From Candidatus Bathyarchaeota archaeon A05DMB-2 (GTDB lineage: Archaea; Thermoproteota; Bathyarchaeia; Bathyarchaeales; Bathycorpusculaceae), in contig JAAKEZ010000007.1 of the NCBI GenBank assembly GCA_018475625.1, forward strand, positions 62,001-126,000: a stretch of DNA of 64,000 nucleotides, read 5' to 3'. The notes under the pieces were generated by a model, which worked only from the letters and a program-made list of their open reading frames with translations, was not told where the DNA came from and searched no databases. The translations under genes were made by a program, and so were the position numbers. Below, one piece after another: positions 5,891 through 51,550 of the stretch (position 1 is its first letter; each line of letters opens with the position of its first letter).

Positions 5891-6015
5891 CTATAGAACA
5901 AAAACCGCACATCAGCTCAGCCTGTGGCAACCATCAGCACCAGATTGCAGCGCTAACAAAATCAAAGATAAATAGTGGGACTGCACATTCCTATGAAATA
6001 GGATGGAGATTTAAA

Positions 6016-6438
6016 GTGTCTGTACCTCAGAGAAAATTCCTCACCGAAGTCGCGGCGCTGGTAGAAAAAACCGTCAGCGTCTCAACCACCACGGGAAGAA
6101 CGTTCACCGGCACACTCATCGGCATTAACACCGATAATCTGAGCTTGTGCATAGCTGAAGCAAAAGACGAGACAGGAAAAGTCACGCACAGGCTATTCCT
6201 AAACGGAAACGTCGTGGCTCAAATCTCAAGCGCTGAGAAACCCTTCGACCTGCAAGCATTAGCAAGCCGCCTAGAAAAAGTGTTCCCAACTATGGTTAAA
6301 CTGTACGAAGACAAAGGGTTCATATGGGTCATGGACAAGGTAAAGCTGACCGAACGCGGCGTTGTGGAAGGTTCAGGTCCAGCCGCAGAACGCGTGCAAA
6401 GAGTCTACGAACAATTCATGAGCGAAACAAAAGGCTAG
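6016..6438 (+). CDS. Sm-like archaeal protein (SmAP3-type, Lsm domain plus C-terminal domain)
   Basis: Sm-like proteins form ring oligomers that bind U-rich RNA. The 140-residue product starts with an Sm1-type fold: VEKTVSVSTTTGRTFTGTLIGINTDNLSLCIAEA. An Sm2-like strand, HRLFLNGNVVAQISS, follows. A further domain of about 60 residues comes next, ending in ERVQRVYEQFM. Total length and this extra domain resemble the SmAP3 subgroup rather than the short SmAP1. It starts with GTG at 6016. Its TAG stop and the stop of the convergent PAC2 gene share the palindrome CTAG at 6435-6438. Confidence 0.8.
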   Translation: MSVPQRKFLTEVAALVEKTVSVSTTTGRTFTGTLIGINTDNLSLCIAEAKDETGKVTHRLFLNGNVVAQISSAEKPFDLQALASRLEKVFPTMVKLYEDKGFIWVMDKVKLTERGVVEGSGPAAERVQRVYEQFMSETKG

Positions 6439-43564: not shown

Positions 43565-44527
43565 TTGGGGAAAACTTGCAAACCTGTGATCGCTGTTCAC
43601 GGCGGAGCCGGAACATGGGCGCCCGAGCACAGCCAACCTGCGCTAAACAGCGTGAAAACGGCAGCCCAAACAGGTTTTGAAGTGTTGAGGGCTGGCGGAA
43701 CGGCTGTTGATGCAGTTGTCGAGGCGGTCGCGTCCATGGAGGACAGCGGCAACTTTAACGCTGGCGCAGGTTCAAACTTGAACATCGAGAAACGCGTGGA
43801 AATGGAGGCTTCCGTCATGGACGGCAGCACGCTAAGGGCGGGCGCCACTGCACTTCTAACCGACATCAGAAACCCGGTGCGCTTGGCTAGAGTGGTTATG
43901 GATAAAACTGACCATATTTTGGTGGTGGGCAGGGGCGCCGAGCAGCTTGCCCGCGCGTTCAATCTGGAACGGCGAAGCGTCGCCGACTCGGTCAGGTTTA
44001 AGCGTTACGAAGCGCAGCTGAACGCTCTCCTACAGGGAAAGAGTGAACTGCCTAAGCTGGCGGAAATGGTCAAAGCGCACCCCGACGTGTTCCATCTTGA
44101 AACTGTGGGCGCAGTCGCAGTTGACTCAGACAGCAACGTGGCAGCAGCCACCTCCACAGGCGGGTTTCCGTTGAAGCTTGCGGGGCGAATAGGCGATTCG
44201 CCGTTGATCGGGTGCGGCGCTTACGCGGACAACCGTTCTGGCGCTTGCTCCGCAACAGGCGTGGGTGAAGTTGCCATCAGGCTAGTAGTGGCGAAAGCCG
44301 TGTGCGACCGCATCGCGGATGGCCATGCACCGCAGGAAGCAGCTGAAGATGTCATAACGCTTGTCAAGCAGCGCGTTTCAGGAGTTTACAACGACATGGG
44401 CTTCATCGCTCTGGATGCGCGGGGCAGGATAGGTGCTGCTCATAGTTCTCCGAACTTGTGCTGGGCTTTTATGTCTGAAGAGCATCAGGCGCCTGTGGCT
44501 TCGTTGAATGCCAAGTTTCTGAAGTGA
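43565..44527 (+). CDS. Type-2 (plant-type) L-asparaginase / isoaspartyl aminopeptidase
   Basis: This is an N-terminal nucleophile hydrolase that cuts itself into two chains. The 320-residue precursor has AVHGGAGTW at the start. The cleavage and nucleophile site is HLETVGAVAVD with T180. ATSTGGFPLKLAGRIGDSPLIG and YADNRSGACSATGVGE follow. The enzyme frees ammonia from asparagine or repairs isoaspartyl bonds. A TTG start at 43565 is used (GTG at 43561 is out of frame). Confidence 0.9.
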   Translation: MGKTCKPVIAVHGGAGTWAPEHSQPALNSVKTAAQTGFEVLRAGGTAVDAVVEAVASMEDSGNFNAGAGSNLNIEKRVEMEASVMDGSTLRAGATALLTDIRNPVRLARVVMDKTDHILVVGRGAEQLARAFNLERRSVADSVRFKRYEAQLNALLQGKSELPKLAEMVKAHPDVFHLETVGAVAVDSDSNVAAATSTGGFPLKLAGRIGDSPLIGCGAYADNRSGACSATGVGEVAIRLVVAKAVCDRIADGHAPQEAAEDVITLVKQRVSGVYNDMGFIALDARGRIGAAHSSPNLCWAFMSEEHQAPVASLNAKFLK

Positions 44528-44599
44528 GTTGAGAAGAGAATAGCGCAAAGCCGTGGTATCTCGTGGCTTCCCCCGTGAAATTTTCGACACTTGACGAAT

Positions 44600-44660
44600 A
44601 AGAATCTTTAAACCATGCGGGAGCAAGGTACACTAACACTCAAATGTGCGCGGGAGGTGA
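44600..44660 (+). promoter_or_regulatory. Promoter and ribosome site of the acidic micropeptide
   Basis: CTTTAAACC (44606-44614) is a TATA-like element. GGGAGGTGA (44652-44660) is a near-perfect Shine-Dalgarno site seven bases before the ATG at 44667. The spacing gives a leader of about 30 bases if transcription begins about 25 bases after TATA. Confidence 0.55.
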
Positions 44661-44666
44661 AAAAGA

Positions 44667-44732
44667 ATGGTGTTTGAAGAAGAGGAATGGGAAGAGGGTG
44701 AAGACGAAGAATGGGAGGAAGAAGAATGGTAA
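44667..44732 (+). CDS. 21-residue acidic tryptophan-spaced micropeptide
   Basis: The ORF ATG-TAA encodes MVFEEEEWEEGEDEEWEEEE followed by a final W. It has 13 Glu, one Asp and three Trp at positions 8, 16 and 21. The repeat-like pattern is acidic run, Trp, acidic run, Trp. A strong SD (GGGAGGTGA, 44652-44660), a TATA-like box and a T-rich tract after the stop frame it as a self-standing transcription unit. I know no family. Very acidic short proteins may bind basic proteins or metal ions (inference). It lies between the asparaginase and ABCE1 genes on the plus strand. Confidence 0.6.
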   Translation: MVFEEEEWEEGEDEEWEEEEW

Positions 44733-44745
44733 TCAATCTATAGAA

Positions 44746-44765
44746 AGTATTTTTATTTTTTTCTC
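44746..44765 (+). terminator. T-rich terminator after the micropeptide
   Basis: The plus strand carries TATTTTTATTTTTTTCTCTC (44747-44766) just after the micropeptide stop. Archaeal termination commonly needs only such oligo-T runs. No hairpin is needed or seen. Confidence 0.5.
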
Positions 44766-44841
44766 TCATACATTTTGGTTATGGGTTTTTAAGGTCCAAG
44801 TTTATAACTAAGCTGATTTCATTATTGAGTTTGAATTTGCC

Positions 44842-46641
44842 ATGACCCGAATCGCTGTACTCGACGCTGACAAGTGCAAAGTCAAGAAATGCGACAGACC
44901 ATGCGTCAGCTTCTGCCCCATGGTTCGAAGCCGTGTGGAAGCTATACGCATCGAAGGCAACAAAGCCGTGATATCGGAGATGCTGTGTAGCGGCTGCGGC
45001 ATCTGCGTCAAGAAATGCCCCTTCAAAGCCATCAGCATCGTAAACTTGCCCGACGAGCTGGAGAAGGACTGCAGCCACCGATTCAGTGCCAACAGCTTCA
45101 AGCTTTTCCGGCTGCCAACGCCGTCGCCAGGCACCGTGCTTGGCTTGTTGGGACAGAACGGAATCGGCAAAACCACCACGCTAAAAATTCTTTCAGGCGA
45201 GTTCAAACCCAACTTGGGCAAATATGATAATCCGCCAGAATGGGATGAGATAATCCAGTACTACAGGGGCTCAACACTGCAAGACTATTTCCAGAGAATG
45301 AGGCAGAACAGCCTCAAAGTCGCGCATAAGCCGCAGTACGTTGATAAAATCCCCCAAGCCGTCTCAGGCAAAGTCGGGGACCTCCTCGAAAAAGTGAATG
45401 AAAGAAAACTGCTGGACAAGCTTGCAGTGGAGCTTGAACTCGAGAAGGTCTGGGACCGCGACTTGAACGTGCTCAGCGGAGGCGAACTCCAACGTGTGGC
45501 GGTCGCGGCGGCTCTCAGCCGAGAGGCAGACGTGTACCTTTTCGATGAGCCGTCCAGCTACTTGGACGTGAAGCAGCGGCTGACAGTGGCTAAGGCGATT
45601 AGGAGCTTGAAGGACTACGGTAAAATCATTATCGTGGCGGAACACGACCTCGCCATAATCGACTACCTGTCAGACCAGATTTGCGTGTTCTACGGGGAAC
45701 CAACAGTCTACGGCGTCGTCAGCCACGTACACGGCGTCCGCACGGGCATAAACATTTACCTGCAAGGCCTTATCCCCGACGAGAACATCCTGTTCCGCAG
45801 AGAAGCCATCGTTTTCCACGAGAAACCCCCAACCACAACCGCCAGCGGCGGCGAGACGCTACTGAAGTGGGGCAAAATCGAGAAAACGTTTGAAGGCTTC
45901 AAGCTCACGGCTCAGCCGGGCGAAATCAGGCGTGGCGAAATCATCGGCATCCTCGGACCCAACGGCATAGGCAAAACAACCTTCGTGAAAATTCTAGCTG
46001 GACTGGAACAGCCGGATGACCAGCAGAAACTGAGCGAGTTGACGGTGAGCTACAAGCCGCAGTACATTGCCGCCGAGTATGAGGGTACCGTTCAGGAACT
46101 GCTCATGAGCGTGGCTAAAGAGAACTACACGTCAAGCTGGTACAAAACCGAAATCATCACCCCGCTAAAGGTTCAGCCTCTACTAGACAGAAACGTTGCA
46201 GAACTCAGCGGCGGAGAACTCCAAAAAGTCGCCATCGTCGCATGCCTAAGCCGCAAAGCTGACCTGTTCTTGCTGGACGAGCCAAGCGCCTACTTGGACG
46301 TTGAGGAACGCTTGAACATGGCGAAAACCATCAGACGTGTGGTGGAAGCTCATAGCATACCAGCCTTCGTCGTGGAGCATGACGTCGTGACGCAGGACTT
46401 CATAGCCGACAGCCTCATGGTTTTTACAGGGGAACCAGGCGTCAAGGGCGAAGCGAACCCGCCTGTGAGCCTGCGAAATGGCATGAACATGTTTCTGAGG
46501 GAAATGAACGTGACATTCCGCAGAGACTCCGTGACCAGGCGCCCCCGCGTCAACAAGGAAGGCTCAAAAATGGACACGTTCCAGAAAGACATAGGCGAAT
46601 ACTACTACACAAAAACGAAACCAGAAACAACAAAAAAGTAA
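44842..46641 (+). CDS. abce1: ABCE1 ribosome-recycling ATPase (RLI)
   Basis: ABCE1 splits 70S or 80S ribosomes after termination. The 599-residue protein starts with an Fe-S domain (CKVKKCDRPCVSFCPM, CSGCGICVKKCPFKAI) for two 4Fe-4S clusters. Two ABC domains follow. The Walker A loops are GQNGIGKTT and GPNGIGKTT. The signatures are LSGGELQRV and LSGGELQKV, and Walker B regions VYLFDEPSSYLD and FLLDEPSAYLD lie after them. All parts needed are present. It is monocistronic. Confidence 0.96.
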   Translation: MTRIAVLDADKCKVKKCDRPCVSFCPMVRSRVEAIRIEGNKAVISEMLCSGCGICVKKCPFKAISIVNLPDELEKDCSHRFSANSFKLFRLPTPSPGTVLGLLGQNGIGKTTTLKILSGEFKPNLGKYDNPPEWDEIIQYYRGSTLQDYFQRMRQNSLKVAHKPQYVDKIPQAVSGKVGDLLEKVNERKLLDKLAVELELEKVWDRDLNVLSGGELQRVAVAAALSREADVYLFDEPSSYLDVKQRLTVAKAIRSLKDYGKIIIVAEHDLAIIDYLSDQICVFYGEPTVYGVVSHVHGVRTGINIYLQGLIPDENILFRREAIVFHEKPPTTTASGGETLLKWGKIEKTFEGFKLTAQPGEIRRGEIIGILGPNGIGKTTFVKILAGLEQPDDQQKLSELTVSYKPQYIAAEYEGTVQELLMSVAKENYTSSWYKTEIITPLKVQPLLDRNVAELSGGELQKVAIVACLSRKADLFLLDEPSAYLDVEERLNMAKTIRRVVEAHSIPAFVVEHDVVTQDFIADSLMVFTGEPGVKGEANPPVSLRNGMNMFLREMNVTFRRDSVTRRPRVNKEGSKMDTFQKDIGEYYYTKTKPETTKK

Positions 46642-47145: not shown

Positions 47146-47694
47146 GTGACCGAGACCGCAACAACCAAAGAGCCCAACAGAGAGCCCATAAAAGCCTCGG
47201 AAATCGACCCCAAATTCAAGTATGAACTCTCACGGATGCACGGCAGCGAAAAAATTCTAAGATGCTTCCAATGCGGAACATGCACCAGCGACTGCCCAGT
47301 CGCAAGATACAGCGAAACATACAGACCACGCACCATAATACGCATGGCACAGCTCGGACTCCGAGACCGCGTGCTCAACAGCGACACCCTGTGGCTTTGC
47401 GCCGCGTGCTTCACATGCACCGACCGCTGCCCACAAGACATTGAAGTCGCCAGCGTCATCCGCGTCCTGCGAAACTTGGCGGCTGAAAAAGGCTGTGTGC
47501 CCATAGTTTTCAAGGAGCAAATCGCCAGCGTGCTCGAGTCAGGCTACGCCTACAAGATACCCGATTTACGAATCAAAAAACGCGAAACTCAGGGACTGCC
47601 GCCGCTGCCCAAAGGCAACCCAGCGAGCATTAGTAAAAGCCTCAAAGGCGTCAAGTTCCTAGAAAACATTGAGAAGAAGAGTGAGCAGCAGTGA
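47146..47694 (+). CDS. hdrC: Heterodisulfide reductase subunit C-like iron-sulfur protein
   Basis: HdrC carries two 4Fe-4S clusters and passes electrons to HdrB. The 182-residue product has CFQCGTCTSDCP (about 42-53) and LCAACFTCTDRCPQDIEV (about 84-101), each in a CxxCxxCxxxCP form. It starts with GTG. Its stop overlaps hdrB by four bases. It is the first gene of hdrC-hdrB-hydrogenase small-large-protease. Confidence 0.88.
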   Translation: MTETATTKEPNREPIKASEIDPKFKYELSRMHGSEKILRCFQCGTCTSDCPVARYSETYRPRTIIRMAQLGLRDRVLNSDTLWLCAACFTCTDRCPQDIEVASVIRVLRNLAAEKGCVPIVFKEQIASVLESGYAYKIPDLRIKKRETQGLPPLPKGNPASISKSLKGVKFLENIEKKSEQQ

Positions 47695-48581
47695 GCAGCA
47701 ACAAGTACCTGATTTTCCTCGGATGCGCCATCCCATACCGCGTCTCATCTTATGAGATTTCCGCGCGCAAAGTCCTCGCCAAACTCGGCGTGGAACTGGT
47801 TGAAATGCCCGAATTCAACTGCTGCGGTCTGCCGTTAGACCCGGTAAGCCACGAAATGATGCTTATTCTCGCGGCAAGGAATTTGGCGTTAGCTGAACAA
47901 CAAGGCTTGAACATTATCACGCTGTGCCCCGGCTGCGCCGGCACTCTGAAGAAGGTTAACAAGATTTTAAAGGAAGACAAGGCATTAAGAGAGCAAATTA
48001 ACGGTCACTTGAAAGAGGCTGGATTGGAGTTCAAGGGCACGGTGACAACGAAACACTTAATGCAGGTGCTAATCGAAGACGTGGGTTTAGAAAAAATCAA
48101 AAGCGCAGTTCTTAAGCCGTTGACTATGCTGAAGGTGGCAGAACACAACGGATGCCACATCCTCCGACCCAAAGAGTACATCGGCTTCGATGACCCAGAA
48201 GACCCGCAGACACTTAAGACGCTCATCGAAGCCACAGGCGCCACTTGCCTAGATTACATGGATGAAACCGAGTGCTGCGGAGCGCCAAGCGTTGGCGTCA
48301 GCGACAAAGTGGCTTTGCAACTCGCCCGAGACAAGCTGAACCACGTTAAAATGGTGGACGCGCAAGCTTTAATAACAATCTGCCCGTTCTGCCACATAAT
48401 GTACGATACTAATGAGTTGCGCATCGAGAAAATGTTCAACGAGGCTTATGGCATTCCAATTCTGCATTATCCCCAGCTTCTGGGTTTAGCCATGGGTATG
48501 TCGCCTGAAGAACTCGCCTTCAATGAACTCAGAGTTAACGCCTCAAAATTGTTAACACAAGTCACCGAAGGTGCGAAATAA
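47691..48581 (+). CDS. hdrB: Heterodisulfide reductase subunit B-like protein (CCG domains)
   Basis: HdrB holds two unusual non-cubane clusters in CCG domains and reduces disulfides. The 296-residue product has FNCCGLPLDP and TLCPGCAGT in the first half. The second CCG region has NGCHILRPKE, ETECCGAPS and ICPFCHIMY. Cysteine patterns are intact in both. As no HdrA is encoded in this window, the electron path to HdrC and HdrB must come from the hydrogenase small subunit or an outside HdrA. It starts four bases inside hdrC. Confidence 0.88.
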   Translation: MSSNKYLIFLGCAIPYRVSSYEISARKVLAKLGVELVEMPEFNCCGLPLDPVSHEMMLILAARNLALAEQQGLNIITLCPGCAGTLKKVNKILKEDKALREQINGHLKEAGLEFKGTVTTKHLMQVLIEDVGLEKIKSAVLKPLTMLKVAEHNGCHILRPKEYIGFDDPEDPQTLKTLIEATGATCLDYMDETECCGAPSVGVSDKVALQLARDKLNHVKMVDAQALITICPFCHIMYDTNELRIEKMFNEAYGIPILHYPQLLGLAMGMSPEELAFNELRVNASKLLTQVTEGAK

Positions 48582-48583
48582 AA

Positions 48584-49558
48584 ATGAGTGAAAAACTGAA
48601 ATTAGCCTTTTACTGGGCTGCAAGCTGCGGCGGCTGCGAAATCGCCGTGTTAGACATAAACGAGAAAATCCTTGATGTAGTAAAAATAGCGGACATCGTG
48701 TTCTGGCCCGTAGCTTTGGACATAAAGTACAAAGATGTGGAAGCTATGCCTGACAAGTACATCGACATCTGCTTCTTCAACGGATCCATCCGCAACAGCG
48801 AGCAAGAGGAGATGGCGAAGTTGCTGCGGCAAAAAGCCAAAACGCTTGTAGCTTTCGGTTCATGCGCCCACGAAGGATGCGTACCAGGCTTAGCGAACTT
48901 GCATGACAGCAAAGAAATCCTTGACTATGTATATTTGAAAGAGAAATCAGTTGTGAACCCAGCGGGAATCATTCCTAAACCTGAAACCGAAGTGAAAGAA
49001 GGCACTTTGGAGATTCCAGAATTCTACGACACAGTTAAAACTTTAGCGCAAACCGTGGACGTAGACTACTACTTACCCGGCTGCCCGCCGCCGGTCAAGC
49101 TCATAGCGGAAGCCGTGGACGCAATCGCAGCAGGCAAACTGCCACCAAAAGGCTCGGTGCTTGCACCGCTAAAAGCCGTCTGCGACGAGTGCCCGCGGAA
49201 ACGCGAGAACAAGAAAATCGCCAAGATTTACCGAGTACACGAGAAGGCACCTGAACCTGAAAAATGCCTGCTGGAACAGGGCATACTCTGCATGGGTCTC
49301 GCCACCCGCAGCGGTTGTGGTGCCCAGTGCCTGCAGGTTGACATGCCTTGCACCGGCTGCCAGGGGCCAGGACCAAATATGCCTGAAATTGGCGCTGGAA
49401 TGATAACTGCTTTAGCCGCCATACTTGGGTATGATGAGAAGAACTTGTCTGCGGAAGATGTTGAAAAGCTGATGAGCCAGATAAAAGACCCGGTTGGCAC
49501 GTTTTACATGTACTCGTTACCAGCATCGATTCTACGGAGAAAGGTGATGAAGAAATGA
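48584..49558 (+). CDS. mvhG: [NiFe] hydrogenase small subunit (MvhG-like)
   Basis: This small subunit bears up to three 4Fe-4S clusters. The 324-residue product has proximal-cluster cysteines in ASCGGCEIAV, FGSCAHEGC and LPGCPPPVK. The C-terminal region carries CDECPRKREN, CLLEQGILCMG, SGCGAQC and CTGCQGPG. It is longer than HoxY by about 140 residues. It starts three bases after hdrB and overlaps the large subunit gene by four bases. Confidence 0.88.
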   Translation: MSEKLKLAFYWAASCGGCEIAVLDINEKILDVVKIADIVFWPVALDIKYKDVEAMPDKYIDICFFNGSIRNSEQEEMAKLLRQKAKTLVAFGSCAHEGCVPGLANLHDSKEILDYVYLKEKSVVNPAGIIPKPETEVKEGTLEIPEFYDTVKTLAQTVDVDYYLPGCPPPVKLIAEAVDAIAAGKLPPKGSVLAPLKAVCDECPRKRENKKIAKIYRVHEKAPEPEKCLLEQGILCMGLATRSGCGAQCLQVDMPCTGCQGPGPNMPEIGAGMITALAAILGYDEKNLSAEDVEKLMSQIKDPVGTFYMYSLPASILRRKVMKK

Positions 49559-51006
49559 AAGAAATAAGCATAAACCCGATAACGCGGCTTGAAGGTCACG
49601 GAAACATCTCCATATTCCTCAACGACGCAGGCGAAGTAGAAAATGCCTACCTGAAAATCCCGGAGCTCAGAGGCTTCGAGAAATTCTGTGAGGGAAGACG
49701 AGCTGAACTCATGCCACTGCTCACCACGAGAATCTGCGGAGTCTGCCCCGTCGCACACCACTTCGCGTCAGTCAAAGCCTTAGACGCAGCCTTCAACGTT
49801 GAACCGCCATCAGCCGCCAAGAAACTCCGCGAACTCATGTACGAAGGGTACATAATCTACGACCACACTCTCCACTTCTATTACTTGGGCGGACCTGACT
49901 TCATCGTCGGACCCGACGCACCACCCGAAAAACGCAACATCATAGGCGTCATCGAAAAAGCAGGGTTGGACATAGCCAAAGAAGTCATCAAACATAGAGC
50001 TTACGGACAGAAGATAACAGCAATTCTCGGCGGCAAAGCCACACATCCCGTGTGCGGATTGCCAGGCGGCATATCCAAGGCGCTCAGTGAGGAGAACCGT
50101 CAAGAAATCGAAAAAATGGCAACTTCCAGCGTGGAATTCGCTAAACTCAGCCTGAAACTGTTCCACGACATAGTGTTGGGCAACAGCGCGTACGTTGACA
50201 TGATAAAGAGCGACGCTTACACCATGAAAACCTATTACATGGGCTTGGTGGACGACGACAACAAAGTTAACTTCTACGACGGAAAAATCAGAGTAGTCGA
50301 CCCCAACGGCAGCGAATTCCTAAAGTTCGAACCCAAAGACTACCTAACGCACATCGGCGAGCACGTGGAACCATGGACCTACTCAAAGTTTCCGTTCCTG
50401 AAGAAAATCGGCTGGAAAGGCCAATTCTACGGCACAGACAACGGTGTCTACCGTGTGGGCCCGCTTGGACGGCTGAACGCCTCGGACGGCATGGCAACAC
50501 CGCAGGCGCAAGCTGAATACGAAGTCATGTACAAAACCTTAGGCAAACCAGTGCATGGTACACTGGCGTTCCACTGGGCACGCTTGATCGAGCTGCTCTA
50601 CGCCGCGGAACGCGCGGTTGAGCTGGTGAAAGACCCTGAAATCACGAGCACGAACATACGCAACAAGCCAGGCGAACCCGGCGAGGGAGTGGGCGTGGTT
50701 GAAGCCGCACGGGGCACGCTGTACCATCACTACGTGCTTGACAAGGACGCGCTCGTCAAGAATTTGAACCTGATTGTGGCTACCACCAACAACTACCCAG
50801 CCATCTGCATGTCCATCCGCGACGCAGCTAAAGGCTTGATACACAACGGCAAGGTTGACCAGGGCGTGCTTAACAAGGTGGAGATGGCGTTCAGGGCTTA
50901 CGACCCATGCTTCGCATGCGCAACACACGCCGCAATCGGACAGATGCCGTTAACCATTAAGGTTTACGACAGCCAGAAAAACCTGCTGCAAACCCTTCAA
51001 CGGTAA
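49555..51006 (+). CDS. mvhA: [NiFe] hydrogenase large subunit (MvhA/HoxH-like)
   Basis: This is the catalytic subunit of the Hdr-linked hydrogenase. The 483-residue protein has RLEGHGNISI at the start, TRICGVCPVAHH near residue 60 and DPCFACATHAAIGQMP near the C-terminus. A tail of 25 residues after the ligand His is expected to be cleaved. Sequence and layout are near the HoxH of this window (VEPWTYSKFP, YRVGPLGRLN, VVEAARGTLYHHY). It overlaps mvhG. The protease gene 40 bases downstream fits its maturation. Confidence 0.9.
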   Translation: MKEISINPITRLEGHGNISIFLNDAGEVENAYLKIPELRGFEKFCEGRRAELMPLLTTRICGVCPVAHHFASVKALDAAFNVEPPSAAKKLRELMYEGYIIYDHTLHFYYLGGPDFIVGPDAPPEKRNIIGVIEKAGLDIAKEVIKHRAYGQKITAILGGKATHPVCGLPGGISKALSEENRQEIEKMATSSVEFAKLSLKLFHDIVLGNSAYVDMIKSDAYTMKTYYMGLVDDDNKVNFYDGKIRVVDPNGSEFLKFEPKDYLTHIGEHVEPWTYSKFPFLKKIGWKGQFYGTDNGVYRVGPLGRLNASDGMATPQAQAEYEVMYKTLGKPVHGTLAFHWARLIELLYAAERAVELVKDPEITSTNIRNKPGEPGEGVGVVEAARGTLYHHYVLDKDALVKNLNLIVATTNNYPAICMSIRDAAKGLIHNGKVDQGVLNKVEMAFRAYDPCFACATHAAIGQMPLTIKVYDSQKNLLQTLQR

Positions 51007-51046
51007 ACCTTTTCTTCTATTCTTATTTTTAGATGGGCGTTTCAAC

Positions 51047-51550
51047 TTGGCTAAAGACAAGCACGGCGTTCGTGGTGAGTTGGAAGAGTGGGTTGCTGGT
51101 GCAGGAAAAGTTGTGGTAGCGGGCATCGGGAACCCTATACGCAGAGACGACTTTGTCGGCGTGAAAATAATTCAAGACTTGTCGGGCAAGGTTTCAGACA
51201 GGGTTCAGTTGATTGAATGTGAAACCGTCCCAGAAAGCTTCCTCGAGCCCATGATGGAGTATAACCCAACGCATGTGCTGCTGATAGACGCGGCAGTCAT
51301 GGGATTGAAGCCCGGCACCATCCGCCTAATCGACCCCGCATGCGTCGCTGATGTTCCAGCCGTCACCACGCACATGCTCCCATTGCGGATTTTCTGCGAA
51401 TACCTTACCAAGATGACAGGCGCCAAAATCGCTTTGCTGCTTGTTGAGCCTGAGAACACGGAGTTCGGGGAAGGCTTAACTGCCACGGTGCAGACTGCCG
51501 CGGAAAAAATTGAGGCAATGCTCTTAGACTTGTTGGCTAAACTTGATTAA
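51047..51550 (+). CDS. Hydrogenase maturation endopeptidase (HyaD/HycI family)
   Basis: The protease removes the C-terminal tail of a NiFe large subunit after nickel is inserted. The 167-residue product has GIGNPIRRDDFVGVKI (nickel-sensing Asp), then LIECETVPESF, DAAVMG and THMLPL. The first Asp and later His/Asp positions correspond to nickel ligands. It follows mvhA by 40 bases in the same operon. It may also process the HoxH tail, which has the same length and related sequence (inference). Confidence 0.9.
   Translation: MAKDKHGVRGELEEWVAGAGKVVVAGIGNPIRRDDFVGVKIIQDLSGKVSDRVQLIECETVPESFLEPMMEYNPTHVLLIDAAVMGLKPGTIRLIDPACVADVPAVTTHMLPLRIFCEYLTKMTGAKIALLLVEPENTEFGEGLTATVQTAAEKIEAMLLDLLAKLD

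Follow-up and report, generated by a model that had tools for sequence, protein, structure and literature searches.

An acidic, tryptophan-containing micropeptide gene conserved in Bathyarchaeia and frequently located upstream of abce1

Introduction

Can a reading frame of 21 codons that encodes almost nothing but Glu, Asp and Trp be a gene in its own right, and if so, what might its product do? Bathyarchaeia count among the most abundant of the uncultured archaea. The question is raised by an ORF in one of their genomes, that of Candidatus Bathyarchaeota archaeon A05DMB-2, within a stretch of 64,000 nucleotides that was analysed as a whole and is referred to here as the window. The initial annotation of this DNA described the ORF as a self-standing micropeptide gene.

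Results and Discussion

The micropeptide ORF and its surroundings

The ORF (44667-44732, plus strand) runs from an ATG to a TAA and encodes the 21 residues MVFEEEEWEEGEDEEWEEEEW, which include neither Lys nor Arg and carry a net charge of about -14. The initial annotation saw in it only Glu/Asp runs broken by Trp; the Trp residues are indeed at positions 8, 16 and 21, and the description is incomplete in that the peptide starts with M-V-F and also contains Gly11. The ribosome site, ranked at first among the strongest of the window, tops all of the 67 long ORFs compared: the Shine-Dalgarno sequence GGAGGTGA matches the anti-SD sequence over 8 bases, against a best value of 7 among those ORFs, and a match of 8 bases is found in 0.08% of random 17-mers. 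It was also rightly foreseen that the ORF is too short for usual gene calling, as default gene finders would miss a gene of 21 aa. The features of the locus are listed below.

44583..44598, plus strand: palindromic element TTCGACACTTGACGAA (core CGNCANNTGNCG), candidate site for a gene-specific transcription factor
44606..44612, plus strand: TATA box CTTTAAA, promoter of the micropeptide gene
44653..44660, plus strand: Shine-Dalgarno site GGAGGTGA, 6 nt 5' of the ATG, the best among the window ORFs compared
44667..44732, plus strand: micropeptide ORF MVFEEEEWEEGEDEEWEEEEW, conserved, with codon-level purifying selection
44750..44764, plus strand: T-rich tract, a probable terminator of archaeal type for the micropeptide gene, judged from T content and T-runs across copies
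44801..44807, plus strand: TATA-like TTTATAA at a conserved motif position, probable own promoter of abce1, outside the micropeptide gene
44842..46641, plus strand: abce1 (RLI), ribosome recycling ATPase and conserved neighbour (NF009945, E=3e-266, over the cut-off)

Upstream, an asparaginase-like gene (43565-44527) stops before the micropeptide promoter. Downstream of abce1, translations indicate a cluster of heterodisulfide-reductase-like and hydrogenase-like genes (window 47146-51550). In keeping with the initial annotation, which knew of no matching family, the micropeptide had no match in Pfam and NCBIfam (E up to 1) or among PDB sequences (E up to 10), searches in which a short, low-complexity query has little power, and the micro-ORF region had none in Rfam.

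Distribution in Bathyarchaeia

Lack of the ORF in close relatives had been named beforehand as grounds for giving up the gene. The micro-ORF was detected in about 77 of the 91 genomes of the same family (a hand tally over several searches, most of them conditioned on parts of the micro-ORF motif, in genomes that are mostly metagenome bins), and also in other families and orders. A pattern built on the first eight codons had matches in 30 of the 91 family genomes, many of them real micro-ORFs, and a looser pattern (GAGGT, 44-74 nt, GARGARTGGTRR) matched in the majority of family genomes and also outside the family, in further families and orders of the class. Longer and variant forms were added by reading the region 5' of abce1 in genomes that the pattern had missed. 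The fetched loci yielded 88 oriented micro-ORFs, and the removal of 3 Lys-rich ones and the addition of the window copy gave a main set of 86 acidic copies. Among the 14 family genomes without a micro-ORF, 8 assemblies gave no match to abce1 (G003, G005, G019, G022, G025, G033, G035 and G080), one had only a partial abce1 (G042), and in G041, G073, G079, G085 and G088 abce1 was present with no micro-ORF seen beside it. Beyond its own family, the micro-ORF occurred in families f2, f4, f6, f7 and f9 of the order and in single genomes of f12, f21 and f22. It thus looks like a near-core gene of one Bathyarchaeia family.

A scan of 84,980 genomes, with a strict pattern that divergent relatives elsewhere would escape, gave real micro-ORFs in Bathyarchaeia only. 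Their source records were Candidatus Bathyarchaeota, Candidatus Bathycorpusculum and the miscellaneous Crenarchaeota group-1, together with one record named Nitrososphaerota archaeon, which probably corresponds to the G032 contig of the same family. Matches outside Bathyarchaeia (Flavobacteria, SAR86, Woesearchaeota, Thermoplasmatota and others) were rejected, as those inspected, which for the Flavobacteria type were only some, were not acidic micro-ORFs and mostly lay out of frame inside other genes. Two viral contig matches were rejected on the same grounds.

The peptides of the collected copies are 15-33 aa long overall (16-28 in the main set, mostly 19-25), with E by far the commonest residue, followed by W and D. 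The mean D/E share is 0.70 and the net negative charge ranges from 9 to 20, with a mean of 15. Among the first 10 residues after Met, a mean of 7 are D or E, with 6 in the window peptide. Two to four Trp were present in 85 of the 86 acidic copies, at a variable spacing of mainly 5 or 8 residues. All 86 copies of the main set end in ...EEW-stop, as the searches required, and copies found by other routes end in ...EDEEM, ...EDEEE, ...DEE or ...EEEE; the -EEW end is common and widespread, not invariant. Within the window's own genome, a search for other EEW-stop genes gave only two short or doubtful frames. ATG, GTG or TTG serves as the start codon, and one copy (G038, L118) apparently starts with CTG or lacks a normal start codon at the homologous position. 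The GAGGT ribosome site is also present in the relatives' micro-ORFs, GAGGT being part of several of the search patterns by which they were collected.

Purifying selection on the micropeptide

Codon positions were compared in within-genus pairs of equal length, and the start codon and the last four codons, mostly fixed by the search patterns, were left out. An earlier count on peptides picked by their sequence was circular and was replaced by the within-genus and non-overlapping-pair counts. In the within-genus pairs, which overlap and consist mostly of copies gathered by patterns fixing GAGGT and the last codons, the differences per site at codon positions 1, 2 and 3 were 0.044, 0.041 and 0.238, and 52% of the changed codons were synonymous, compared with 12% expected for random single changes. 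When 23 non-overlapping pairs were used, there were 17, 13 and 75 differences at the three positions, so that 75 of 105 fell on the third (P=2e-15, with an expectation of one third); a slight misalignment in one or two of the pairs biases the count against a third-position excess. In the 30 nt 5' of the ribosome site, 56% of positions differ, a rough figure from an ungapped comparison. Because the differences are concentrated at third codon positions, selection acts on the peptide: on the evidence of these codon comparisons, the micropeptide is under purifying selection at the amino-acid level.

Two alternatives to a coding gene are affected by this result. One is that the ORF arose by chance or is a relic. 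The ORF is very short and of low complexity, and one locus of genome G053 (L131, near 6000-6080, minus strand) carries a second micro-ORF copy that has lost its start, is broken by internal stops and adjoins an N stretch; this second copy is a decayed duplicate. Against such an origin stand the conservation of the ORF, the selection test and the lack of comparable ORFs in the background. In 1.245 Mb of fetched DNA there were 107 Shine-Dalgarno-led ORFs of 12-35 aa in which charged residues made up 60% or more and D/E 50% or more, and all of them belonged to this family or its variants; the loci had been picked for a micro-ORF or abce1, and the count therefore controls the local background and not gene frequency. 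A chance ORF is refuted in practice by the selection test, and we regard the chance or relic origin as scarcely credible.

The other alternative is that the locus works as a regulatory RNA or a purine-rich RNA element, the ORF being a by-product or of secondary importance. It would fit a short, purine-rich transcription unit with its own promoter and end, and basic (AAR-rich) micro-ORFs occupy the same place in two loci of another family (L294, L298). The excess of differences at third positions speaks against it, as do the Trp codons, which stay in register, and the length changes, which preserve the frame. Folding gave no stable structure (z=0.28), no consensus base pairs were seen in a 10-sequence alignment that was small and had one poorly framed row, and Rfam, as noted, gave no match. 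An RNA element is therefore improbable.

Promoter, palindrome and transcript end

The TATA-like box and the T-rich terminator of the initial annotation both recur in the relatives. CTTTAAA lies at 44606-44612 in the window, and a TATA-like hexamer was present in 75 of the 86 copies, mostly 53-61 nt 5' of the start codon; transcription would be expected to begin near 44632-44638. The T-rich tract of the window lies at 44750-44764. Across copies, T content peaks 20-40 nt 3' of the micro-ORF stop, a T-run was found in 81 of 86 copies compared with 57% of shuffles, and T-rich tracts also follow the copies that are not beside abce1. Scans for sigma-70 promoters and hairpin terminators were uninformative, the host being an archaeon.

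Within TTCGACACTTGACGAA, the palindrome CGACACTTGACG lies exactly 10 nt 5' of TTTAAA. Its core CGNCANNTGNCG was exact in 47 of the 66 same-family acidic copies and had at most one mismatch in 58 of them, and the gap between palindrome and TATA box was 10 nt in nearly all same-family copies with the core. In all, 958 kb of fetched DNA contained the core 53 times. The extended palindrome with the TATA motif was found once in the window's own genome, at the micropeptide gene, and the arrangement of palindrome, 10 nt and TATA was found in the family almost exclusively at the micro-ORF gene; the exceptions were one G078 match without a visible micro-ORF and one relic-like case in G073. A regulon defined by the palindrome was accordingly rejected. 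Paralogous or displaced copies that were not found beside abce1 keep the palindrome promoter (L103-L106, L116, L137). The palindrome was absent from the micro-ORF copies of other families and from a few members of the own family.

From its position and restriction, the palindrome looks like the binding site of a dedicated regulator, and because it adjoins the TATA box, the arrangement suggests an activator. In G073, whose abce1 is also without a micro-ORF in front, a palindrome-TATA promoter (L186 near 1501, minus strand) precedes another ORF, acetyltransferase-like, with no micro-ORF; this may possibly be promoter capture after loss of the micro-ORF.

Relationship with abce1

In 67 of 103 acidic micro-ORF loci, an ABCE1 start followed on the same strand within 260 nt, mostly at 110-150 nt, and this adjacency was seen in several families and orders. 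In 12 others the ABCE1 start was 410-2323 nt away, with other DNA between, often ORFs, and for the remaining 24 no ABCE1 start was found within 3.2 kb downstream, some of these being contig ends or starts that the motif missed (such as L126, L129 and L308). At 68 of 79 loci, abce1 had a TATA-like motif no more than 75 nt from its start, usually 37-43 nt before it. The simplest reading is that there are two transcription units and that their adjacency is old, the place next to abce1 being, as we infer, the ancestral arrangement.

Other micro-ORFs occur at or near such loci. In two genomes of family f5, Lys-rich micro-ORFs lie before abce1 (L294:1273-1311 of G136, MPKKKKAEEKKK; L298 of G134, MPKKKEEAKKEKTEEKEKKKKK). 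A very basic micro-ORF follows or lies near the acidic one on the same strand in seven loci (L092, L093, L090, L161, L094, L154 and L162), in which the acidic micro-ORF is mostly not beside abce1; examples are MPKKKKGKKKGKGKEK, directly after ...EEEEEEEW in L093, MSEKKKKKPKKKEEKKEKKEEEW in L154 and MSKKKRAPKKKKEEKKEEW in L162. The acidic and the basic micropeptide may possibly form a pair of complementary charge. A basic partner as a general rule was rejected, as a K-rich pattern had no match in the window's own genome and only a few across the order, and the acid/basic pair is therefore a local feature. In L154, L161 and L162, a small zinc-ribbon-like ORF (starting MA.CP.CGKE......EWDLGKIH) lies 3' of the micro-ORFs, with only weak Pfam zinc-ribbon matches, confined to its first 30 residues.

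Adjacency to abce1 across several orders could mean a role in cis, and the main rival to a free peptide is a nascent-chain sensor for ABCE1. The acidic run would destabilise or pause the ribosome, or the ribosome would linger at EEW-stop under poor recycling; held at the stop, just behind an RNA polymerase at the T-tract 20-40 nt downstream, it would then alter read-through into abce1, giving feedback on the ribosome-splitting factor. The frequent placement within 260 nt upstream of abce1 agrees with this, as does the early acidic composition, which destabilises ribosomes in bacteria and yeast (PMC9718836), and the peak of T content soon after the micro-ORF stop. The bacterial MgtL leader offers a likeness: it is a very short ORF before a gene, with early acidic residues, a property shared by the micro-ORF, and both early acidic residues and this leader are targets of the ABC-F ATPase EttA (PMC11282234), so that an ABC-type ribosome ATPase is the modulator there and the neighbour (ABCE1) here. 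MgtL, however, controls mgtA in cis, whereas the micropeptide gene has its own T-rich end and stays intact away from abce1. A leader of the MgtL kind would always lie directly before the gene it controls, and the 24 loci without an ABCE1 start and the 12 more at 410-2323 nt do not show this. Moreover, peptide and T-rich end are preserved in the displaced copies, as is the palindrome in most of those within the family. A separate TATA-like motif precedes abce1 at most loci, and abce1 lacks a micro-ORF in front of it in G041, G073 and G079. The displaced copies count against a role that is purely in cis but leave a nascent-chain effect in itself untouched. We consider the ABCE1 sensor unlikely. 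A broader form, in which translation of the acidic micro-ORF would report ribosome stability or recycling capacity and would ancestrally have tuned abce1, the gene having moved later in some lineages, would make it a conserved archaeal counterpart of the bacterial MgtL/EttA logic; by this analogy it may be entertained, and we hold it to be a little more doubtful still.

An autonomous, probably trans-acting micropeptide

As far as genome comparison can tell, the ORF is conserved, its amino acids are under selection, and its promoter element, ribosome site and T-rich end are its own also away from abce1. Since displaced copies keep their own promoter and T-rich end, this is an autonomous gene and not only an abce1 leader, which bears out the self-standing gene first proposed. 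We therefore favour, as moderately probable, an autonomous protein-coding micropeptide gene of Bathyarchaeia whose product is a trans-acting, acidic, Trp-anchored binding peptide. A dedicated regulator would bind the palindrome, which lies immediately 5' of BRE/TATA, in the manner of an archaeal activator site, and the peptide would thus be made under regulation. The product would be a disordered chain and would serve in trans as a short linear binding motif, its Trp side chains anchoring it in hydrophobic pockets and its acidic residues covering a basic surface of the partner. As N-terminal D/E-rich nascent chains abort translation (PMC9718836), synthesis of the full-length peptide may be inefficient.

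For a disordered binding motif of this kind, aromatic residues, preferably Trp, and acidic residues are sufficient (PMC9381478). The DisUBM of Dss1/Sem1, a disordered acidic peptide, combines two or more aromatics, for which Trp is preferred, with several negative charges (PMC9381478), and the micropeptides likewise have at least two aromatics and several negative charges. Its best aromatic spacing, however, is 2-3 residues, compared with mostly 5 or 8 in the micropeptides, and Dss1 is a longer eukaryotic proteasome subunit to which no homology of the micropeptide was shown.

No partner emerged from co-occurrence, fusion or homology. A translation or ribosome-recycling factor would be the first candidate because of the ancestral place before abce1, and also because charged aromatic tails of stalk proteins bind aEF1A, aEF2, aIF5B and aABCE1. 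The C-terminal tail of the archaeal stalk protein aP1 makes these contacts (PMC6791870) and resembles the micropeptide as a charged chain with an aromatic or hydrophobic end. The aP1 of the own genome, in contrast, ends in ...KAKEEAALEGLGALFG, with no Trp, no -EEW and no homology, and a mimic of the aP1 tail by sequence was rejected, the micropeptide having no hydrophobic C-terminus like ...GALFG.

A histone would be the second candidate partner, as nearly all these genomes carry one. A related proposal is that the peptide is a chaperone for histones or other basic proteins, or a nucleic-acid mimic, through acidic-aromatic capping. Its charge (net negative 9-20, mean 15) and regularly spaced aromatics would suit such a role, and histone-fold genes were found in 88 of 91 genomes and in 53 of 53 high-quality ones. 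No genomic link to histone genes was seen, however, and composition alone is weak evidence, so that this role seems unlikely, if worth keeping in mind.

The binding peptide that we favour can be set, by description, beside the small proteins detected by Ribo-seq in Methanosarcina mazei and Haloferax volcanii, which are reportedly likewise encoded by unannotated archaeal small ORFs that are genes of their own (PMC11456600, PMC12482152); the micropeptide differs in being known from sequence alone and from Bathyarchaeia only.

Significance

The micropeptide gene illustrates clearly that some 20 codons, encoding almost pure E, D and W, can be held by selection class-wide, with a promoter element that is nearly their own. 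What looks like a near-core gene of one family is invisible to default gene calling. Should the peptide, or the act of translating it, prove to be linked to ABCE1, the gene would raise the question of how ribosome destabilisation and recycling are sensed in archaea.
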